Shown: positions 4,902 to 28,904 of the stretch, piece by piece
Numbering within the stretch: position 1 is the stretch's first letter
Layout: each line of letters starts with the position of its first letter
Assembly: GCA_021799495.1 (NCBI GenBank)
Contig: JAJZAI010000030.1
Coordinates: 1 to 41,088 of the forward strand
Origin: Deltaproteobacteria bacterium
Lineage (GTDB): Bacteria; Desulfobacterota; Binatia; Binatales; Binataceae
Direction: 5' to 3'
Length of the DNA stretch: 41,088 bases
Position numbers and translations under genes: made by a program
The notes under the pieces: model-generated
Databases searched by the model: none
Seen by the model: only the letters and a program-made list of their open reading frames with translations
Told to the model about the DNA's origin: nothing

Positions 4902-7900
4902 ATGGCGCGAAAGCGGATTAAAACATTGGCCAATGAATGGGGCGTCTCGCTCGAAGACGTGCTGGCGAGTTGCGCCCGTCTGAACCTGCCGCATGCCCAT
5001 TTGGAATCGAGCCTGCTGACGCAGGAGGAAACCGAACGGGTGCGCGCCGATCTCGACGAGCAGGCCCATCGCGAGGAAATTCTGCGGCGCGAGAAAGTCG
5101 TCGAGACCAGCGCGGGCCGCGCCGTCGAAAAGCGCTTGAACGCCACCGTCGTCCGCCGGCGCCATACGGAGCCCGAAGCGGGCGCCGCCGAAGCCGCCGC
5201 ACCCAGCGAGCCGTTTCATTTTGAAGTCGAGCCGGAAACGGTCGAAGAGGCGTTTGTCGCGCCGGTCTTCGAGCAGCCAGTTCTTGAGGAACCTGAATTG
5301 CCGCAGTTGGCGGTCGAATCCGAGCAGCCGGTGTCCGAGCCCATCATGCAGGAGGTGGCCGAGTCCGCCGCCGAAGGAATTGAGCCGACGCCCGGCGACG
5401 GCAGCGCCGAGGCGGCCGCTCCGGCGCCGGATTTGGAGCCCGAAGCTCCGGCGCCGTCGCCGCAGGCAGCCGCGCCATCCCGACCGCAGCCTCAGCGCAG
5501 ACCGATGCCGCCGCCGGGTCGCGGCGCGGAGGGGCGTCCGCCGCGTCAGGGCGGTCCGCGGGTTTCCGGTCCGACGACCGTCGCCGGACAGATTCGTCCG
5601 GGCGGGATGCCGCAGGGCGGTCCGCTGCGCGATAACAGCTCGATTCGCGTGCTTTCCTCAGGCGCGGGCGCGCCGCAATTGCGCCGTGCCGAGAAACCGG
5701 CCGCCGAAAGCGCCGAGTCAAGCCGCGCGATCAATCTGACCGGCGCGGCGCATGCCGCGGCGCCGAGCCTGGACGACGGCCAGCGCGGTCCGAAGGTGCT
5801 GGGCAAAATCGATCTGCGCAAGCCCGCGCCCGCGCCGCGTCCGACCGGAGCGCCGTCGCGCCCGGCGGGGCCGCCCCGTCCGGCGGGGCCGCGTTTTCCC
5901 GGCGCTCCCGCCGCGCAACCTCCGCAGGAGGGCTTCGGCCCGCCGCCTCCGGATTCCGGCAAGCCAGGAGCCGCGCGCACGATCAAGAAAAAGCGCGTGG
6001 TCAAAAAAGGCGCGCCCGATATCGCCGCCGAGCGCGAGATGCGCGGCCTCAGGGTGCCGAAGAAGCGCCGCGCGCTGCCGGGCAAGGAGCAGCGCAAAAC
6101 CGAAATCACGACGCCGAAGGCCTCCAAGCGCGTGGTGCGCGTGACCGAGGGCGTGACCGTCGCCGATCTGGCGCGCCAGATGGGCGTCAAGGCGACGGAG
6201 ATTATCCGCAAGCTGATGGATTTGGGCGTGATGTCCACGCTCAACCAGGTGCTCGACGTCGACACCGCGACGCTGGTCGCGAGCGATTTCGGCTACAGCG
6301 TCGAAAACGTCGCGTTCGACGTGGAATCGGCGATCGAAGAGAGCGAGGAAACGGTCGAGGGCGAAGCGCTGCCGCGTCCGCCGGTGGTGACCGTGATGGG
6401 CCACGTCGATCACGGCAAAACCTCGCTGCTCGACGCGATCCGGCATACCAACGTGACCGAGCGCGAGTTCGGCGGAATCACGCAGCATATCGGCGCCTAC
6501 ATGGTCGAGATCAACGGGCGCAAGATCAGCTTCGTCGATACTCCCGGCCATGAGGCGTTCACGGCGATGCGCGCGCGCGGCGCGAAGGTCACCGATATCG
6601 TGATTCTGGTGGTCGCCGCCGACGAGGGCGTGATGCCGCAGACGGTGGAAGCGCTCAATCACGCCAAAGCGGCGGGCGTGCCGATTCTCGTCGCGATCAA
6701 CAAAATCGACCGTCCCGAGGCGAACGTCGATCGGGTCAAGCAGCAGCTCACCGAACGCGGCCTGATTCCCGAAGACTACGGCGGCGACACGATCATCGTT
6801 CCGGTGTCGGCGCGCACCCGCGAGGGTATCGAGCGCCTGCTCGAAATGATTTTGCTGCAGGCGGACGTGATGGACCTGAAGGCGAATCCGAACCGCACGG
6901 CGCGGGGCACGGTGGTCGAATCGCAACTCGACCGCGGCCGCGGGCCGGTCGCGACGGTGCTCATCCAGGAGGGCACGCTCCATCAGGGCGACGCGTTCGT
7001 CTGCGGCGCGACCTACGGCCGCGTGCGCGCGATGCAGAACCATCTGGGGCAGCGCATCGCCGAGGCCGGCCCATCGACGCCGGTCGAAATTTTCGGCCTC
7101 TCCAGCGTGCCGGAACCGGGCACCGCGTTTACCGCCGTGCAGGAGGAAGCCAAGGCGCGCCAAGTCGCGGAATTCAGGGCGTCCAAGCTTCGCGAGGGCG
7201 TGCTGCAGAAGACCAGCCGCATCTCGCTTGAAGACCTGAGCGAGCGTCTGGCGGCGGGCGAGGTCAAGGAGCTGCGCGTAATCCTGAAAGGCGACGTCAA
7301 CGGCTCGGTCGAGGCGCTGGCGGATTCGCTGACGCGGCTTTCGACCAGCGAGGTCAAGCTCGAAATCCTGCACAAGTCGGTCGGCGCGATTTCCGAGACC
7401 GACGCGACGCTCGCTTCGGCGTCGCGCGCGATCATCATCGGCTTCAATGTGCGGCCCGAGCCGAAAGCTGCGCAACTGGCCGAGAAGGAAGGCGTCGAAA
7501 TCCGCCTCTACACGATCATTTACGAGGCGATTAACGACATGCGCGAAGCGCTCGAAGGCCTGCTCGCGCCGACCTTCCGCGAAAAGGCGCTGGGGCGCGC
7601 CGAAGTGCGCCAGACCTTTGTCGTCCAGGGCAATACGATCGCGGGCTCGATGGTGCTCGACGGCAAGGTGCTGCGTAACGCGCGCGCCCGCCTGGTGCGC
7701 GACGGACGCGTCGTATGGGAGGGCAAGCTCTCCTCGCTGCGCCGTTTCAAGGATGACGTGCGCGAGGTTCAGGCCGGTTACGAATGCGGTATCGGGCTTG
7801 AGAATTTCAACGACGTCAAGCCCGGCGACGTGGTCGAGAACTTCGAGCTCGAAACCGTGCTGCGCAAGCTCGAAACGCCGAAAGCCGAGCCGATGCGCGG

Positions 7901-7925
7901 CCAGGGCGCGCAGCTCCAGACCTGA
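4902..7925 (+). CDS. Translation initiation factor IF-2
   Basis: IF-2 (1007 residues) is the GTPase that places initiator tRNA on the 30S subunit and promotes subunit joining. An IF2 N-terminal helical domain (about 1-52) is followed by a very long Pro/Ala/Glu-rich and then Pro/Gly/Arg-rich linker (about 55-400). A second IF2_N domain (about 405-460) precedes the G domain. G1 is [11 protein letters not shown] (about residue 498), G2 [11 protein letters not shown]3 DTPGHEAF and G4 NKID. Domains II, III and IV follow to the C terminus. At just over 1000 residues it is longer than typical IF-2 because of the linker, as in other deltaproteobacteria-like lineages. It sits 10 bases after ylxR. Confidence 0.97.
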
Positions 7926-8041
7926 GCGCAGGGACGGGCCTGAGGCCGTCCGGATGCGGCGTTCGAATCGTCCGCCGGGCCTCCACCGGCGCGGGGCGAA
8001 AGCGGCGCAACCCGGCGCGGCGCAACTGGCGAATAATCACG

Positions 8042-10289: not shown

Positions 10290-10318
10290 TTTACCGGGCG
10301 GAATGGCTCTGGTATGCT
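10290..10318 (+). promoter_or_regulatory. rpsO promoter
   Basis: TTTACC (10290-10295) and TATGCT (10313-10318) are spaced by 17 bases, and TGG before the -10 gives TGGTATGCT. The -35 lies inside an inverted repeat, GCCCG (10284-10288) with CGGGC (10295-10299), which may be chance or an operator. The predicted start near 10325 gives a leader of about 35 bases containing purine-rich AAGGAAAAAGGGAAAG before the rpsO ATG. Confidence 0.6.
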
Positions 10319-10359
10319 TTGCGGATAAATCAAGGAAAAAGGGAAAGAAAGTAAGCCTG

Positions 10360-10629
10360 ATGCCCCTCGAGGCCACCCGTAAACGGGAAATAATCGGCGT
10401 CAACGCCCTGAAACCCAACGACACTGGCTCGTCCGAAGTTCAGATTGCGATCTTCAGCGCGCGTATCGAACAGCTCACAGAGCATCTGAAGACCCACGCG
10501 AAGGACCATCACTCGCGCCGTGGTCTGCTCCGTCTGGTGGGCAAGCGGCGGCGGTTGCTCGATTACCTGCACTCGCGGGATTACGACCGATACAAAGGTC
10601 TGATCGACCGGCTCGGAATCCGGCGTTAA
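10360..10629 (+). CDS. 30S ribosomal protein S15
   Basis: S15 (89 residues, the family length) binds the central domain of 16S rRNA early in 30S assembly. The family signature runs from [16 protein letters not shown] through [19 protein letters not shown] to [19 protein letters not shown] longer open frame begins at 10276 but crosses the promoter, so the ATG at 10360 is the true start. The gene precedes pnp as in most bacteria. S15 feeds back on its own mRNA in several species; the leader here is too short to judge. A perfect hairpin overlaps its stop codon. Confidence 0.97.
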
Positions 10630-10637
10630 GCCGGATT
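10617..10637 (+). promoter_or_regulatory. Hairpin across the rpsO stop codon
   Basis: AATCCGGC (10617-10624) is perfectly complementary to GCCGGATT (10630-10637) around the five-base loop GTTAA, which contains the rpsO stop. There is no T tract after it, so it is unlikely to be a strong intrinsic terminator. In Escherichia coli the rpsO-pnp junction holds a terminator and RNase processing sites; an analogous processing or partial termination element here is inference. Confidence 0.45.
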
Positions 10638-10759
10638 GTGAGCGCCCGCCGACGCCGTACGCGGCGGCCGGCTGAAGCCCGTGGCGGGGCAAATCAGGCG
10701 ACCAAGGGTTGCGCGGCTGGTCCGCGAAATCAAAGCCCCTCTCCCTCAAGCAGGATCCG

Positions 10760-12862
<2,103 letters not shown>

Positions 12863-22400: not shown

Positions 22401-22417
22401 TACGTGTATTATACGTA
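22401..22417 (+). promoter_or_regulatory. Palindromic operator over the antitoxin -10 box
   Basis: TACGTGTATTATACGTA is an imperfect palindrome (one mismatch in the half sites TACGTGTA/TATACGTA). It contains TATTAT at 22407-22412, six bases before the antitoxin ATG. A dimeric ribbon-helix-helix antitoxin bound here would occlude the promoter, the usual autoregulation of toxin-antitoxin pairs. The region is visibly AT-richer than its surroundings. Confidence 0.5.
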
Positions 22418-22418
22418 C

Positions 22419-22661
22419 ATGAAAGCCAAGCCGCGCAAAAAGCTGACGATCACGGTCGAAGACGCGGTCTATCGCGGCCTGCGCAAGGTGGTTGGTCCGC
22501 GTAATATCAGCCGGTTCCTCAACGACCTTGCCCGACCTCATGTCGTACGTGATCAGCTCGAAGACGCCTATCGGGCGATGGCCGCCGATGAGGAGCGGGA
22601 AGCCGAAGCGGAGGCATGGAGCGAAGGGCTGATCGCGGATGTAGCGGATGAGCCGCGCTGA
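22419..22661 (+). CDS. Antitoxin of a MazF-type module (ribbon-helix-helix)
   Basis: An 80-residue protein with a basic N terminus and a strand-helix-helix start (KKLTITVEDAVYRGLRKVVG, then ISRFLNDLARPHV). An acidic C-terminal region, EDAYRAMAADEEREAEAEAW, ends in a segment that would wrap and neutralise the toxin. This resembles antitoxins paired with PemK/MazF toxins, which bind their own operator. GTG at 22404 is in frame, but ATG at 22419 is preferred because the GTG falls inside the -10/operator. It overlaps the toxin gene by 14 bases. The pair lies just after purF and may have been acquired by transfer. Confidence 0.8.
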   Translation: MKAKPRKKLTITVEDAVYRGLRKVVGPRNISRFLNDLARPHVVRDQLEDAYRAMAADEEREAEAEAWSEGLIADVADEPR

Positions 22662-22995
22662 GGATCCGTCGCCGCGCCGCGGCGAAGTTTGGTGGGTGGC
22701 GTTCGATCCGGCGATTGGCGGCGAAATCAAAAAAACCAGACCGGCGATCGTGGTCAGCAACGACGCCGCCAACCGCGCCCTCAACCGCGTTCAGGTCGTT
22801 CCAGTGACCAGCAATGTTCGGCGGTTATATCCCGCGGAAGCCTATGTGACGGTGGGCGGCGCGCGCCGCAAGGGGATGGCCGATCAAATCGCGACCGCGA
22901 GCAAGCAGCGGTTGCGAGAAAAACTCGGCAAAATCGACCCTACCGAAATGGCCGCCGTCGAACGGGCAATCAAAATCCAACTCGGCCTTGAATGA
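22648..22995 (+). CDS. MazF/PemK family toxin (endoribonuclease)
   Basis: A 115-residue PemK/MazF-fold toxin; characterised relatives cleave mRNA and arrest growth. Family features are RRGEVWWVAFDPAIGGEIKKTRPAIVVSND, which contains the conserved Arg and the GxEI-KTRP-vVS block, then VQVVPVTSNVRRLYPAEAYV and MADQIATASKQRL. The residues normally tied to catalysis, the Arg of KKTRP and the Thr/Ser of PVTS, are both present, so the toxin looks intact. The start overlaps the antitoxin end. The cut-site specificity cannot be read from the sequence. Confidence 0.88.
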   Translation: MSRAEDPSPRRGEVWWVAFDPAIGGEIKKTRPAIVVSNDAANRALNRVQVVPVTSNVRRLYPAEAYVTVGGARRKGMADQIATASKQRLREKLGKIDPTEMAAVERAIKIQLGLE

Positions 22996-23100
22996 GATTA
23001 ACCGCTTTACAAATCAGGCGGGAATCAGCGCGGATTTGGACATCATTTTCGGCAAATTTGTAGCGTCGTATTCCGCAAGTAAGTTTGCTTTGTGGCGGCG

Positions 23101-23214
23101 GATCGGGATTCTTCGCTTCGTCCTTCGCTGCGCTCAGGACAAGCTCAGAATGACAAATGGTGCTGTTTTGCTGTCATTCTGAGCGGAGGCCGTCGAAGCG
23201 AAGAATCCCGGATC
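23101..23214. repeat. Palindromic dispersed repeat, copy 2
   Basis: Two inverted arms, 23101-23154 and 23173-23214, flank an 18-base spacer. GATCGGGATTCTTCGCTTCG begins the left arm and CGAAGCGAAGAATCCCGGAT lies at the end of the right. The TCAGAATGAC and GTCATTCTGAG ends face each other in the centre. The left arm carries an insertion of about 12 bases. It is the same arm sequence as at 149-212 but with the two arms in the opposite order. A short open frame crosses it but is not a credible gene. Confidence 0.75.
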
Positions 23215-23281
23215 AGCTAAATTAGCGCGCGAAACGGGACGCTAAAATTCCAGCATTGAGTGTAGCGACCGTACAGTCGGT

Positions 23282-24229
23282 TCAGCGGCTGATGCCGGAG
23301 GGGTCGGCGAACGCGACGTCGCGCATCAACTGCGTCACCGGCATCCGCGTGATCAATATCGAGATGAAATGCCCCGTCGGATAGAACGACAGGCAGATGC
23401 TGTAGCCCTTGTATTCGTAAAACGACCGCAGGCCGAGCCAGTTGAGCGCTCCGATCGGCGCCGCCATCGTCGGATCGTAAAAACACAGGCTCACGATCTC
23501 GCCCGCGGCGCCTTCATAAAGCGTGTACGCGATCGGTTGCCCGTCAGGGAGCTGATCGACCCGGCCGCCGGTAATCGTGTAACCCGCTTGCGCGAAATCG
23601 AACAGGTCGTCGGGCAGATTCGCGGAGCGGTACGAACGCGCGAGATCGTTGAAGGCGTCGGAATCGGCCTCGTCGGTCACGCGATGCACCGGGTCGCGGT
23701 TGATTACCCAGGCGTAAACCGCGCCGGTTTGATTTTCGTAAGCTTCCGCCGGAACGTTCGGAACGAAATCGTGCTGGAACTGCTGGAAGCGCGAGATCGC
23801 AAGTTCGAACTCGGGAACCGGCGGCGGCGTCGCAATCAAGCCGCGGCGCGGAACGGCGATCGCGGCCAAAATCGCGATCGCGATAACCGCCGCAAGTCCC
23901 GCCGGCGCCCATATCAGCGGTTCGCGGACACGGCTCGCGGCCGCGCGGAACGGCGCGAACAGTTCCGCCAGACGCGCCGTCCACGGCGCCGCGGCGCGGC
24001 GATCGGCTTCGTCGAGCGCGCCGCGGATGCGCGATTTAAGATCGGCCGGCGTTTTGACGATCGCGGCGCCTTGCCTGACCATTGCCTTGAGCGCGCGCGC
24101 TTCGATTAGCTGCGCCCGGCAGATGGGGCATCCGGAGACATGTTCGTCGGCGCCGCGGCGCGCCAGCGGCGCAAGTTCTCCGTCGGCATGCCCCGCAAGA
24201 TACTCACTTATGTACTCACGGCAATCCAA
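23282..24229 (-). CDS. Zinc-finger anti-sigma factor with periplasmic sensor domain
   Basis: A 315-residue protein with an N-terminal cytoplasmic anti-sigma zinc finger (CREYISEYLAGHADGELA, then HVSGCPIC, the H-x3-C-x2-C motif). One membrane span lies around residues 107-131 (WAPAGLAAVIAIAILAAIAV), followed by an extracytoplasmic C-terminal domain of about 180 residues. It should hold the ECF sigma factor encoded just upstream. The start is a TTG: an in-frame stop lies three codons before it and the next ATG would remove the zinc finger. The periplasmic part contains three conserved-looking aromatic blocks and two cysteines and matches no domain I can name. The signal sensed is unknown. Confidence 0.82.
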   Translation of the reverse strand: MDCREYISEYLAGHADGELAPLARRGADEHVSGCPICRAQLIEARALKAMVRQGAAIVKTPADLKSRIRGALDEADRRAAAPWTARLAELFAPFRAAASRVREPLIWAPAGLAAVIAIAILAAIAVPRRGLIATPPPVPEFELAISRFQQFQHDFVPNVPAEAYENQTGAVYAWVINRDPVHRVTDEADSDAFNDLARSYRSANLPDDLFDFAQAGYTITGGRVDQLPDGQPIAYTLYEGAAGEIVSLCFYDPTMAAPIGALNWLGLRSFYEYKGYSICLSFYPTGHFISILITRMPVTQLMRDVAFADPSGISR

Positions 24230-24327: not shown

Positions 24328-24906
24328 TCAAGTACCTGTTTTTCCGCGCGCCTGGTCGAGCCTGCACAGCGCCTTGCGCATCAGCGCCCGCCCGCGCGAG
24401 ACGCGCGATTTGACCGTGCCGAGCGGCACGTCCAGCACGATCGCGACCTCCTGATAATTTAACTCCTGCACGTCCACGAAGATCAGCGCTTCGCGGAATT
24501 CCGCCGGCAGCGCGTTCAACGCCAGTTCGATCCGCCTGCCTGCGGTGCGGCTCAGAAGCAACGCTTCCGGATTGATCCGCGACTGGTCGGCGTCGCGGCT
24601 CTGCGCCTCGATTTCGCCGGCGAATTCTTCGGACGTGCTCGCAGGTTGTTCCCGTTCTCCGCGGCGCCATGCGTTGCGGAAGCTGTTGTAGAGAATCGTC
24701 AGCAGCCACGCCCGGCAATTGGTGCCGGGGCTGAACTGATCGAAGAACCGGTAGGCGCGAAGGATTGTCTCCTGCGTGAGGTCGTTGGCGTCGTCGGGAT
24801 TCCGCGCCAGCCGCAGCGCGGCCGAATAGACGGCGTCGAGATGAGGCAGCGCCTCCCGCTCGAAAGCGAGGCGCCTGTCCGCCGCCGTGCCGCTTTTGCG
24901 CGCCAT
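24328..24906 (-). CDS. ECF RNA polymerase sigma factor
   Basis: A 192-residue ECF (group 4) sigma factor. Region 2 runs from LDAVYSAALRLARNPDDANDLTQETILRAYRFFDQF to WLLTILYNSFRNAWRRGERE. A charged linker rich in Glu, Asp and Ser follows, then region 4 with ALPAEFREALIFVDVQELNYQE and the helix-turn-helix segment LDVPLGTVKSRVSRGRALMRK. The frame is open further upstream, but the family starts near the ATG at 24906. It lies 98 bases before the anti-sigma gene on the same strand. A GTATC-N17-CGTC pattern (24942 to 24917 on the minus strand) just before it could be its own target promoter. Confidence 0.9.
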   Translation of the reverse strand: MARKSGTAADRRLAFEREALPHLDAVYSAALRLARNPDDANDLTQETILRAYRFFDQFSPGTNCRAWLLTILYNSFRNAWRRGEREQPASTSEEFAGEIEAQSRDADQSRINPEALLLSRTAGRRIELALNALPAEFREALIFVDVQELNYQEVAIVLDVPLGTVKSRVSRGRALMRKALCRLDQARGKTGT

Positions 24907-25170
24907 ATGCAAGAAAGACGAACATAGCATCCACTTTGATACAAATCCTAATGAGCCGCGAAAGGTTCCCGCTCCGTCTGCGAAGCGTTCCAAAGGTCAT
25001 TCGCCGAAAATTCGCCCGGATCACGGCGGGATAAGCGCCTGATCGACAATTATCCCTTGGGTTCGGATCGGCGTGCGCAGTAATCTCGTCGAAAGCGGGC
25101 GGCGCGCGCGTCGCATGGATCGTTCGTGCACGGCCGGAGCGGGCAACCGATAAACAAAGGATGGAAGACG

Positions 25171-25437
25171 ATGAATCGAAAAGCGGCGACCGGCGCGATG
25201 CTGGCGACTCTGGTTGGCCTGATGTTCGCGGCGCAGCCGGTGCTGGCGGCTGACAGCAGCGGGCAGAACGCGTCGGCCGGCGTCAAATGCGTCGGTGGAA
25301 ACAGTTGCAAGGGCCAAAGCTCATGCATGAGCGCGAGCAATAGTTGCAAAGGCCAGAACTCCTGCAAGGGCAAAGGATGGGTTACCACGGCGAACGCCAA
25401 GGATTGCGTCGCCAAGGGCGGCCATCCGGCGAAATAG
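25171..25437 (+). CDS. Bufferin-type metallophore precursor (BufA2 family)
   Basis: An 88-residue secreted peptide precursor. A Sec signal (RKAATGAMLATLVGLMFAA, cleavage near A26) is followed by a mature part with six cysteines at 40, 46, 52, 59, 65 and 79 in CKGQ-type repeats (NSCKGQSSC, NSCKGQNSCKGKGW). That pattern is the signature of BufA2 bufferins, RiPP peptides whose cysteines are oxidised by the MNIO enzyme BufB with BufC to bind copper in the periplasm. No BufB- or BufC-like gene lies nearby. AAGGA is nine bases before the ATG. It is divergent from an ECF sigma gene, and bufferin operons are often under ECF control in known cases. Confidence 0.8.
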   Translation: MNRKAATGAMLATLVGLMFAAQPVLAADSSGQNASAGVKCVGGNSCKGQSSCMSASNSCKGQNSCKGKGWVTTANAKDCVAKGGHPAK

Positions 25438-25734
25438 CCCGGACTTTCGCGGCCGGGAATGATAGAGGCGCGTCGCGGCGGCGATTGGACCGTTGCGGAC
25501 GCCTCGGGACGGTCAGCGCGATGGCTGGCTGACGGATTGCTGGTAGCGCGCGATCGCTTGCCGTGAATGTCGCGAATTGGACTGATATAGACGATCGCTT
25601 CGACTGATTCCGTCCGCCCGCCAGTGGCGCGGCAGGTGCGAATTTGCCACTCTGAAACGCCTGCGAAGCGGACGTGGCGTATCCGGCGCGTCGCGCCCCG
25701 GACTTCGCCGGCGAGCTTCTGGCGTTAGCGAACG
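25438..25734. other. 297-base spacer without a supported gene
   Basis: No coding region with plausible start and composition is visible between the bufferin gene and the acetyltransferase-like gene. CCCGG (25438-25442) and CCGGG (25454-25458) could form a weak stem just after the bufferin stop, without a T tract. No promoter stands out. Confidence 0.4.
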
Positions 25735-26829
25735 ATGGCGTTGCGGCGAATCAGAATCGAGCGAATCGGCTCCCGCGAAGCCTTCAACCAATTCGCCCGG
25801 CTCCCCTATCTCGTCTATGCCGGGCGCGACGCATGGTGGCCGCCGGATATCCAGAACGAAATCGATTTGCTTTCGGGCCGGGCGCGCATCGCCGCGCATC
25901 TCGATCTCAGTCCTTTCGCCGCCTTCAGCGACGATCGGCTGGTGGCGAGGGTCAGCGCCGTCGTTAATTACCGCTACAACGAACATTGGAACGAAAAACT
26001 CGGCCAGTTGATTCATTTCGAAGCGATGCCGAACGAGGCCGACGCGGTCGCCGCGATGTTCGACGAGGCGTTGACGTGGCTGGCGCGGCGCGGGATGAAC
26101 GCGGCGCGCAGCGGCTTTGCCGCGTTTCTCGATTATCCCTACGCAATCGACAACTACGGCGAATTGCCGTCTTTCCTGCTGAGAGGAAATCCGGATTATT
26201 ACCATTCGTATCTGAAGAACGCGCGCTTCGAGACCGAAAAGGGACAGGTCGATTACACCGCGCCGCTCACCTCGGACTTGCAGGAGCGATACCGGCGGAT
26301 GGTCGCCGCGGCCGAGGCCGCCGGCGTGGTTATCCGCAGTTGGCGCGACTACGGCTTCCTCGCCGCGATCGATGCGTGGACCAACGTGACCAACGGGGCG
26401 TTCATCCGCCATTGGGGATGGAATCCGATTTCGCACGAAGAAGTCCGGCCGATGCTCGCGCCGCTGCAATCGACGCTGGTCGCCGATCTTTCGATGATCG
26501 CGGAAATCGATCGCGCGCCCGTCGGCGCGGTCTTTTCCACGCCCGACCTGAGCGGTTCGCTGGCGATGATCCGCGCCGGCGTCAAGCTTGCGCCCGAACG
26601 GGCCGGTGCGCGCGGCGCCCTGATCAATATCGGCGTGCTTGAGCCGGCGCGCGCGCGCGGCGTGGCGCGCGCGATGGCCGCGCAATCGTACCTTGCGATG
26701 GCGCGCAATAACATGCGCTTCGCCGGATACACGCTGGTGCTCGACGACAACTGGCCGTCGCGGCGGACGGCGGAAAGTCTCGGCGCGCGGGTCACCGGCA
26801 ATTTCGTCACCTATCGCCGTTCGCTTTGA
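25735..26829 (+). CDS. GNAT-like protein (YghO-related)
   Basis: A 364-residue cytoplasmic protein. The N-terminal third (PYLVYAGRDAWWPPDIQNEIDLL, then VARVSAVVNYRYNEHWNEKLGQLIHFEAM and a WLARRGMNAARSGFAAF segment) recalls the YghO family of acetyltransferase-fold proteins. The C-terminal third (about 255-360) has a second GNAT-like pattern, with INIGVLEPARARGVARAMA resembling the acyl-CoA-binding loop (R/Q-x-x-G-x-A/G) and DDNWPSRRTAESLGAR near the end. The acceptor is unknown. No Shine-Dalgarno precedes the ATG. It is transcribed toward the carotenoid oxygenase gene, 107 bases apart, and may share a transcript with it. Confidence 0.6.
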   Translation: MALRRIRIERIGSREAFNQFARLPYLVYAGRDAWWPPDIQNEIDLLSGRARIAAHLDLSPFAAFSDDRLVARVSAVVNYRYNEHWNEKLGQLIHFEAMPNEADAVAAMFDEALTWLARRGMNAARSGFAAFLDYPYAIDNYGELPSFLLRGNPDYYHSYLKNARFETEKGQVDYTAPLTSDLQERYRRMVAAAEAAGVVIRSWRDYGFLAAIDAWTNVTNGAFIRHWGWNPISHEEVRPMLAPLQSTLVADLSMIAEIDRAPVGAVFSTPDLSGSLAMIRAGVKLAPERAGARGALINIGVLEPARARGVARAMAAQSYLAMARNNMRFAGYTLVLDDNWPSRRTAESLGARVTGNFVTYRRSL

Positions 26830-28436: not shown

Positions 28437-28904
28437 ATGCTCACGGCGCGAATCGCGGTGCTGTTCGTGCACGTGACAGCGGTAATCGTTGCGCTGGGCG
28501 GTTCGCTGTTCAGCACCTTCGCGCTGGCCCCGATTCTGGCGGAAGAACTCGAACCGGCCGCGCGAATCCGGGTTCTCCGCAGAGTGATTAGGCGCCTCGG
28601 CGCGATCGTGTTGACCGCGCTCGGCGTCCTGCTGCTGACCGGAATCGTCAACGTCGTCTATCTGGGCGCGATTCCGGCCGCGCTGATCGTGAAACTCGTG
28701 CTGGTCGCGGCCGTGTTCGTCCTCGCTCTTTACCAATACGGAAACCTGGGCGCCGAAATCTGGCGGCTTTCCGCCGCCGGTCCCAATCCGGAGTTGCTCG
28801 CGCTGCAGGCGCGCTTTCGCCGGGTCGGTTTGATGGTGGGCGGGCTGGTGCTGGCGATCGTTTATATCTCGCTCGGATTGACCCGCGGCGGAGCGCTTCG
28901 ATGA
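28437..28904 (+). CDS. Small four-helix membrane protein (CopD-like)
   Basis: A 155-residue integral membrane protein with about four hydrophobic helices (VLFVHVTAVIVALGGSLF, GAIVLTALGVLLLTGIVN, ALIVKLVLVAAVFVLALY and VGLMVGGLVLAIVYISLGL). The His in the first helix and the R-L-x-x-I-V-L-x-A-x-G spacing recall the CopD/DUF4149 superfamily of possible copper or haem-related membrane proteins, but the match is by general pattern only. An AGAGG lies ten bases upstream. Its stop overlaps the next start (ATGA), so the two membrane genes are co-translated. Confidence 0.55.
   Translation: MLTARIAVLFVHVTAVIVALGGSLFSTFALAPILAEELEPAARIRVLRRVIRRLGAIVLTALGVLLLTGIVNVVYLGAIPAALIVKLVLVAAVFVLALYQYGNLGAEIWRLSAAGPNPELLALQARFRRVGLMVGGLVLAIVYISLGLTRGGALR

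Follow-up and report, generated by a model that had tools for sequence, protein, structure and literature searches.

How can a bufferin precursor serve a bacterium when the enzymes that would mature it are not encoded next to it? This question is raised by a 41,088-nucleotide stretch of DNA from an uncultured member of the Binataceae (the window), which is part of contig C87 of a 3.43 Mb genome (G000; 98% complete, 89 contigs) and which carries bufA2, a gene for a six-cysteine precursor, beside a divergent pair of sigma and anti-sigma genes. Stand-alone bufferin precursors are already known. In the available part of a 2025 survey of MNIO clusters, sizeable proportions of bufferin precursors are unlinked to MNIO genes, stand-alone precursors and modification in trans are named as possibilities for Buf2, and the survey leaves undecided whether stand-alone precursors are modified from another locus or work unmodified (PMC12452194). 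The original prediction for the window, made from its sequence, had offered three options for the orphan peptide: modification in trans, function without modification, or maturation by an unrelated enzyme.

The orphan peptide is a BufA2 precursor

The window peptide reached 75.1 bits (E 3.7e-21) against the NCBIfam model NF050166, Cu_RiPP_BufA2, and since the curated cut-off is 60 bits this match is not due to chance. Judged by it, the peptide is, as predicted, a true BufA2 precursor, which adds a member to a known family. Its six cysteines lie at positions 40, 46, 52, 59, 65 and 79; in an alignment of family members (30 of the 36 sequences extracted), cysteine occupies five of these columns in every sequence (30/30) and the column of C59 in 24 of 30. 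Only three of the six cysteines form a Cys-Lys pair. The N-terminus appears by eye to be hydrophobic and signal-like and ends with ...VLA-AD. In precursor family, six cysteines and signal-like leader the window system is like Buf2 (Buf_6/12Cys, BufA2) as described in the accessible text of the survey (PMC12452194), and the peptide probably binds metal. The features of the locus are listed in Table 1.

Table 1. Features of the bufA2 locus; positions are those of the window
Feature	Position	Strand	Basis
bufA2, six-Cys bufferin precursor, 88 aa	25171..25437	+	NF050166 score; Ka/Ks vs sister G011
ECF sigma factor, divergent from bufA2	24328..24906	-	Sigma70_r2 54.6 bits, r4_2 49.7 bits
Anti-sigma: N-terminal ZAS, one apparent membrane span, C-terminal domain	23282..24229	-	zf-HC2, profiles, model
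Likely promoter of the sigma gene, GGAACC -35 type	24943..24969	-	GGAAC in intergenic regions
Candidate bufA2 promoter, TTGGGT-N18-TAATCT, not GGAAC type	25057..25086	+	shared same-genus pattern
Joint region of the deletion, 64 nt	25452..25515	+	end points of the two blastn blocks with G013
Scar, C-terminal bufC remnant ARWLADGLLVARDRLP, stop	25516..25566	+	blastn with G013; tblastn of G013 BufC C-terminus
GNAT-like gene, old right border of the operon	25735..26829	+	PF00583; position in relatives

Loss of bufB and bufC from the operon by deletion

A bufBC pair directly behind bufA2 is usual for such precursors, though it does not define them. Neither an MNIO nor a DUF2063 gene adjoins the window bufA2, and two BufC queries gave no match in the window at E 1e-3, which agrees with the local absence of both enzyme genes stated in the original prediction. 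The usual gene order in the genus is purL-purF (where the contig permits), the anti-sigma and sigma genes on the opposite strand, bufA2, bufB, bufC and a GNAT-like gene, and the same order was also found in G003, G005 and G010, which belong to other genera. Five of the seven same-genus genomes (G012-G016) have bufB adjoining bufA2, and four of these five have bufC and the GNAT gene as well, the contig of G014 stopping inside bufC. The two remaining ones are the window genome and its sister G011, in which bufB and bufC are gone from the bufA2 locus. Outside the genus, there are also bufA2-bufB loci for which the fetched DNA contains no purF (L054-L056).

A blastn comparison of the window with G013 revealed two blocks, one covering bufA2 up to position 25451 (E 3e-70) and one from position 25516 on (E 3e-63), which begins within the 3'-terminal part of bufC and extends into the GNAT gene. 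Between the blocks, G013 has 1,731 nt, containing bufB and nearly all of bufC, where the window has the 64 nt of the joint, so that about 1.7 kb have been lost. With the search space restricted to the window stretch and its G011 counterpart, the remnant ARWLADGLLVARDR matched the C-terminus of G013 BufC with 78.6% over 14 aa (tblastn, E 2.5e-6), and the remnant in G011 matched the BufC C-terminus with 69% over 13 aa (E 0.001). G011 aligns to the window straight through the joint (85% over 736 columns), and the deletion is thus common to both genomes. We conclude from these alignments that bufBC was deleted from the bufA2 operon in the common ancestor of G000 and G011, which share the scar. An assembly artefact is an unlikely source of the gap, because the sister genome has the same gap and homologous joint sequence.

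The gene that now follows bufA2 is GNAT-like, as predicted, with a weak PF00583 match (18.5 bits, cut-off 20.7). Its location directly downstream would suit a scenario in which an unrelated enzyme, for instance this protein, has taken over BufA2 maturation. However, the GNAT-like gene is also the next gene after bufC in relatives with an intact bufABC operon, so its presence is no sign of a replacement, and the genome does encode a BufB (see below). This option of the original prediction is therefore unnecessary, and we have rejected it as extremely improbable.

A precursor gene left behind in a broken operon might be a decaying remnant that has lost its function, and bufA2 does adjoin a clear deletion scar. 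However, the gene is intact in both deletion-bearing genomes, G000 and G011, with all six cysteines present, and by eye it has retained a ribosome-site-like sequence and the signal-like N-terminus. The two bufA2 copies differ by five non-synonymous and seven synonymous changes, resulting in a Ka/Ks of 0.20 (p 0.009 against neutrality in a one-sided binomial test on only 12 substitutions). Provided that the deletion is common to both genomes, their split postdates it. With these few changes as a base, bufA2 seems to have stayed intact since the deletion and to be still under selection, and decay is a very improbable explanation.

A second bufABC set is present on another contig

One MNIO was found in the window genome; it is encoded on contig C16 (PF05114, 378.8 bits) and is a BufB according to NF050167, MNIO_BufB (385.5 bits, cut-off 310). 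A BufC follows it (DUF2063, 61.2 bits, cut-off 27.2), which scored 64.4 against the NCBIfam HvfC model, below the cut-off of 142, and it is preceded by a 72-aa peptide with five cysteines in SCKGHS hexads. No BufA2-like match other than this peptide and the window peptide was found in the genome. With 44.7 bits (first two residues left off) the C16 precursor stays below the BufA2 cut-off of 60 and is BufA2-like only. The original prediction had proposed to search the genome for DUF692/BufB and BufC homologues, and had named bufB and bufC elsewhere in an operon with a second bufA as an observation that would speak against it. One set was indeed found, and it has essentially this arrangement, albeit with a second precursor that is only BufA2-like. 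The description of the peptide as being without its MNIO maturation enzymes hence applies to the locus and fails for the genome as a whole.

By encoding both enzyme types, the window genome is like Buf2 systems with BufB-BufC (MNIO-DUF2063). It differs from them in that a deletion, which left a bufC remnant behind, accounts for the loss of bufBC and in that the enzymes available to it are those of a separate set, which is differently placed in two sister species.

This second set is a 2.15-kb block that is 88.9% identical between the sisters (L002 8161-10314, L045 5247-7390) and has different flanks in the two. In G000 it begins 0.26 kb past a tRNA-Ser gene; in G011 one end has an integrase-like gene at 0.7 kb and a tRNA-Ala gene at 1.45 kb, while transposase-type genes lie at most 0.4 kb from the other end, and a tRNA gene is located less than 1.5 kb from the block in both. 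The regions flanking the block in G000 are found on different contigs in G011, the left one (6098-7934) on C24 and the right one (10317-12254) on C48, and in G013 the block is missing from the tRNA-Ser region. Taken together, the second bufABC set looks mobile. The precursors of the second sets (L002 9992-10210, L045 7085-7285) contain SCKGHS hexads with five cysteines in G000 and four in G011, showing that the number of hexad repeats differs between close relatives.

Origin of the second BufB

The second set could be the old bufBC that was relocated, with no replacement having taken place, or it could have come from elsewhere. Of the 38 MNIO matches, 29 or 32 entered the BufB trees; six, including three partial ones, were not used. 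In the 29-sequence tree, the two C16-type enzymes fall outside the clade of G013, G014 and G016, and a tree in which they were forced together with the G013 BufB, the grouping expected for a moved copy, was rejected (p 0.005 with 29 sequences, 0.009 with 32). The 32-sequence quick tree groups them with G023, G029 and G035 from other genera, with an SH-aLRT of 94 that is under the tool's mark of 95. A deeper grouping, in which the second BufBs and all genus copies form one clade, was not rejected by the AU test (p 0.38 with five rows, 0.34 with seven) and would allow for a relocation. However, the second set also brings its own, very different precursor. We consider relocation improbable; the second set is an apparent replacement of the resident bufBC, and a deep origin within the genus is also compatible with the trees.

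A donor was searched for at three levels. No BufB above 75% was found outside the sister G011 in 41 genomes of the order, a thinned sample of 297 from the phylum yielded only G034 (67%) above the threshold, and all matches in 344 plasmid records were below 60%.

Probable maturation of BufA2 in trans

The window genome and its sister represent a natural experiment: the resident bufBC was deleted, the precursor was retained and one other bufBC was found. It is rather probable that the window peptide is a genuine BufA2 whose own enzymes were deleted in the G000/G011 ancestor and that the second bufABC set supplies the enzymes; modification in trans is most likely what happens to the window BufA2, and it is the best supported of the three options of the original prediction. 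According to this model, bufA2 would be expressed from the window locus, and the cytoplasmic BufB-BufC complex of the other locus would recognise the leader or signal peptide of the window BufA2 and oxidise its central cysteines, mainly those that precede a lysine. The modified product would then be exported by Sec and would bind excess copper or another soft metal in the periplasm.

Precursor and enzyme go together in the family. Across its 41 genomes, BufA2 and an MNIO are both present in 32, BufA2 alone in one, an MNIO alone in one and neither in seven (Fisher p 2.8e-6, relatedness ignored), and the sole genome with BufA2 only is 53% complete. The leaders of the window BufA2 and of the C16 precursor have the positions G8, L11, A12 and F19 in common. 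According to the accessible part of the survey, preliminary results for a Buf1 system make the signal peptide a part of the recognition sequence, and it has been suggested that one complex may serve several precursors (PMC12452194).

A further candidate signal was considered in the enzyme. In MNIOs that act on Cys-Lys, the site after the catalytic Asp is an Asp, for which a contact with the substrate Lys has been modelled (PMC12668002, as far as its available text goes). In the trans BufB an Asp follows the EWD motif, and likewise in 26 of the 29 extracted family BufBs; the two sites were equated by motif only. Since three of four plasmid MNIOs from outside the family have the same Asp, it is a feature of the class and no evidence for this particular pair.

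The model agrees with what the accessible parts of two papers describe for captophorins (fontiphorin, oxazolin, bufferins; PMC12668002, PMC13097082), in which an MNIO acts with a DUF2063-type partner, the two enzyme types that the window genome encodes. A 5-thiooxazole on cysteine is expected from such a pair, and the Cys-Lys class of captophorins has the Asp beside the catalytic Asp that is found by motif in the trans BufB. In contrast to captophorins, the window precursor is separated from the enzymes.

Against modification in trans speaks that just three of the six cysteines of the window peptide precede a lysine. The C16 precursor is strongly diverged (branch length 3.2, with 4-5 cysteines in hexad repeats), and the trans BufBC may therefore be tuned to its own precursor. 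It might then be that the orphan BufA2 works unmodified, being exported and binding metal or buffering redox with its free thiols, while the second set serves its own precursor. That the two precursors are very unlike fits this reading, the survey names the possibility for stand-alone precursors (PMC12452194, available part), and the purifying selection on bufA2 is compatible with either reading. However, a BufA2 without any MNIO was seen in just the one incomplete genome of the 41, the leader retains the family-conserved positions, and according to the accessible part of the published survey an MNIO is missing from 0 of 864 Buf_6-12Cys genomes (PMC12452194). Function without modification is thus unlikely in our view.

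If modification in trans is followed one step further, a mobile bufABC cassette may have displaced the resident enzymes, and one BufBC would mature both the six-cysteine BufA2 and the (SCKGHS)n hexad-repeat peptide of the cassette. This more specific scenario is tentative, and we would lean against it. If true, bufferin precursors and maturases would be exchangeable parts, and the role of BufA2 in this family may lie in the response to envelope stress and not in a dedicated copper regulon.

A sigma/anti-sigma pair adjoins bufA2

The original prediction had noted a divergent pair of ECF sigma and anti-sigma genes next to bufA2 and a zinc finger in the anti-sigma protein, and both observations hold. 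The anti-sigma contains an HxxxCxxC motif; zf-HC2 was matched by the window protein with 21.7 bits, 0.5 below the cut-off of 22.2, and at E 0.1 or better by 13 of 13 aligned members, the window protein included. In this alignment H30, C34 and C37 are invariant, as is C279 in the C-terminal domain. Profile matches in the PDB were RsiW and RsrA, and one membrane span can be recognised by eye. NrsF (PF06532) was matched neither by the window anti-sigma nor among the families listed for the 13-member alignment. From its motif and profiles, the window anti-sigma is of the ZAS type, with a domain like that of RsiW and RslA.

The structural model of the anti-sigma has a mean pLDDT of 73 overall and of 80-93 in residues 201-310. 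In Foldseek, ranks 1-10 for the modelled C-terminal domain were taken by RseB/MucB without exception (best E 8.7e-4); such a fold would be a pointer to envelope stress. VIA-align gave a Z of 7.3 (2.9 Å over 91 residues) for this comparison and warns that a Z under 8 may reflect a common arrangement; since unrelated proteins reached 6.4 and 5.9, the likeness is a lead, not a proof. Possibly, the C-terminal domain of the model has an RseB/MucB-like fold. The pair would then be like sigma-E with RseA/RseB in its single apparent membrane span, in this fold and in the GGAAC-type promoter of the sigma gene, with the differences that in the window the sensor-like domain and the anti-sigma are one polypeptide and that the fold match is modest.

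GGAAC-type promoters are the sigma-E consensus. Of the 15 intergenic regions, 13 contain GGAAC at a distance of 46-82 bp from the sigma end. The sigma-gene promoter motif has one perfect match in the genome; the four other matches, with three mismatches each, equal the four in the reversed control, and no target regulon of the window sigma was found by this genome-wide search. Toward bufA2, GGAAC is absent in 11 of the 15 intergenic regions, that of the window among them, and present in G010, G012, G015 and the G017 region. Before bufA2 we found instead the pattern TTGGGT-N18-TAATCT, which was picked after inspecting the sequences and which occurs in five of the 15 regions, all same-genus (shuffle mean 0.016, maximum 1). 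It is a candidate sigma-70-like box and differs from the box of the sigma gene.

A sigma homologue is divergent from and at most 1 kb away from a bufA2 in 21 of the 33 BufA2-bearing family genomes. The synteny that the original prediction had asked to be checked is thus conserved in most of these genomes, and the linkage of the sigma pair with bufA2 is firm; a lack of co-occurrence of the two, the other observation named as speaking against the prediction, was not what we found. The sigma factor may regulate bufA2, but the proposed control by metal stress finds no direct support, with GGAAC missing before the window bufA2 and the anti-sigma resembling RseB/MucB to a modest degree. While stand-alone precursors are known, the deletion scar, the apparent enzyme replacement and this sigma-E-like pair beside bufA2 are new.

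In Buf1 (DUF2282) operons with ECF sigma and NrsF genes, a sigma/anti-sigma pair also lies beside the bufferin gene. The window locus differs from these in having a BufA2 precursor, a divergent pair and a ZAS anti-sigma in place of NrsF, and thereby ties Buf2 to an ECF system of a different type. It has been stated in print that Buf2 clusters are without sigma/NrsF genes. The family of the window is an exception to this statement, and so is the Novosphingobium plasmid pABRDHK22 (L159 1-3083), in which sigma and DUF1109 genes precede a gene for a six-cysteine BufA2-like precursor, an MNIO gene and a DUF2063-type gene. We take this DUF1109 protein to be NrsF.

Stand-alone bufA2 genes in the family and beyond

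Counting neighbours by hand from the search tables, we found 42 BufA2-like places in 33 of the 41 family genomes. An MNIO is located within about 1 kb at 34 of them and not at the other eight (G000 C87, G011 C9, G027 C24, G030 C24, G032 C145, G035 C15, G036 C40 and G038 C242). G035 has bufA2 and bufC together (L038 9461-10594) and bufB on another contig (L039 4785-5696); this would be a second kind of split bufferin operon, to be viewed with caution in a binned genome with 6% contamination. The stand-alone bufA2 on C24 of G027 has the same place between purL-purF and the GNAT gene, with no sigma gene and no visible scar, and that of G038 adjoins the sigma pair; its next gene is accD-like by eye. 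In G030 a stand-alone bufA2 is followed by a DoxX-like gene (by eye), without bufB or bufC (L042 6687-7591).

Of 273 named relatives, the best 80 were inspected, and in 19 of them bufB is missing from the fetched stretch; in two of these cases (L109 and L126) the contig ends nearby. A tblastn search with the window sigma as the sole query, which may miss other sigma types, gave a match at 13 of the 17 family loci within these 80, and no strong match at the other 63 loci, three of which had weak ones (41-48 bits). Two of these three weak ECF sigma matches, in Gammaproteobacteria MAGs (L134 6385-7837, L136 5866-7620), lie at most 1.6 kb upstream of a stand-alone bufA2 and on the opposite strand. 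A Pseudoalteromonas plasmid (L157 942-1400) encodes a two-domain BufA2-like precursor with a duplicated Cys-rich unit before an MNIO. In the literature, as far as titles and abstract openings go, no Binataceae bufferin locus is named; for the Binatota, the available part of one report lists two NRPS clusters and one terpene cluster (PMC8692599).

Other features of the window

Positions 22404-22995 contain a two-gene unit encoding an 85-aa protein and a PemK/MazF-like protein (PF02452, 92 bits), which is likely a toxin-antitoxin pair. At 23100-23215, in the space that separates the PemK-like gene from the anti-sigma gene, a long imperfect inverted repeat (GGGATTCTTCGCTTCG... / ...CGAAGCGAAGAATCCC) was seen by eye. 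On the other side of the locus, 28437-28904 encodes a membrane protein with DUF4149 (26.8 bits) and a CopD match below threshold (20.9 bits, cut-off 32.1); its gene has the same neighbourhood in some relatives.
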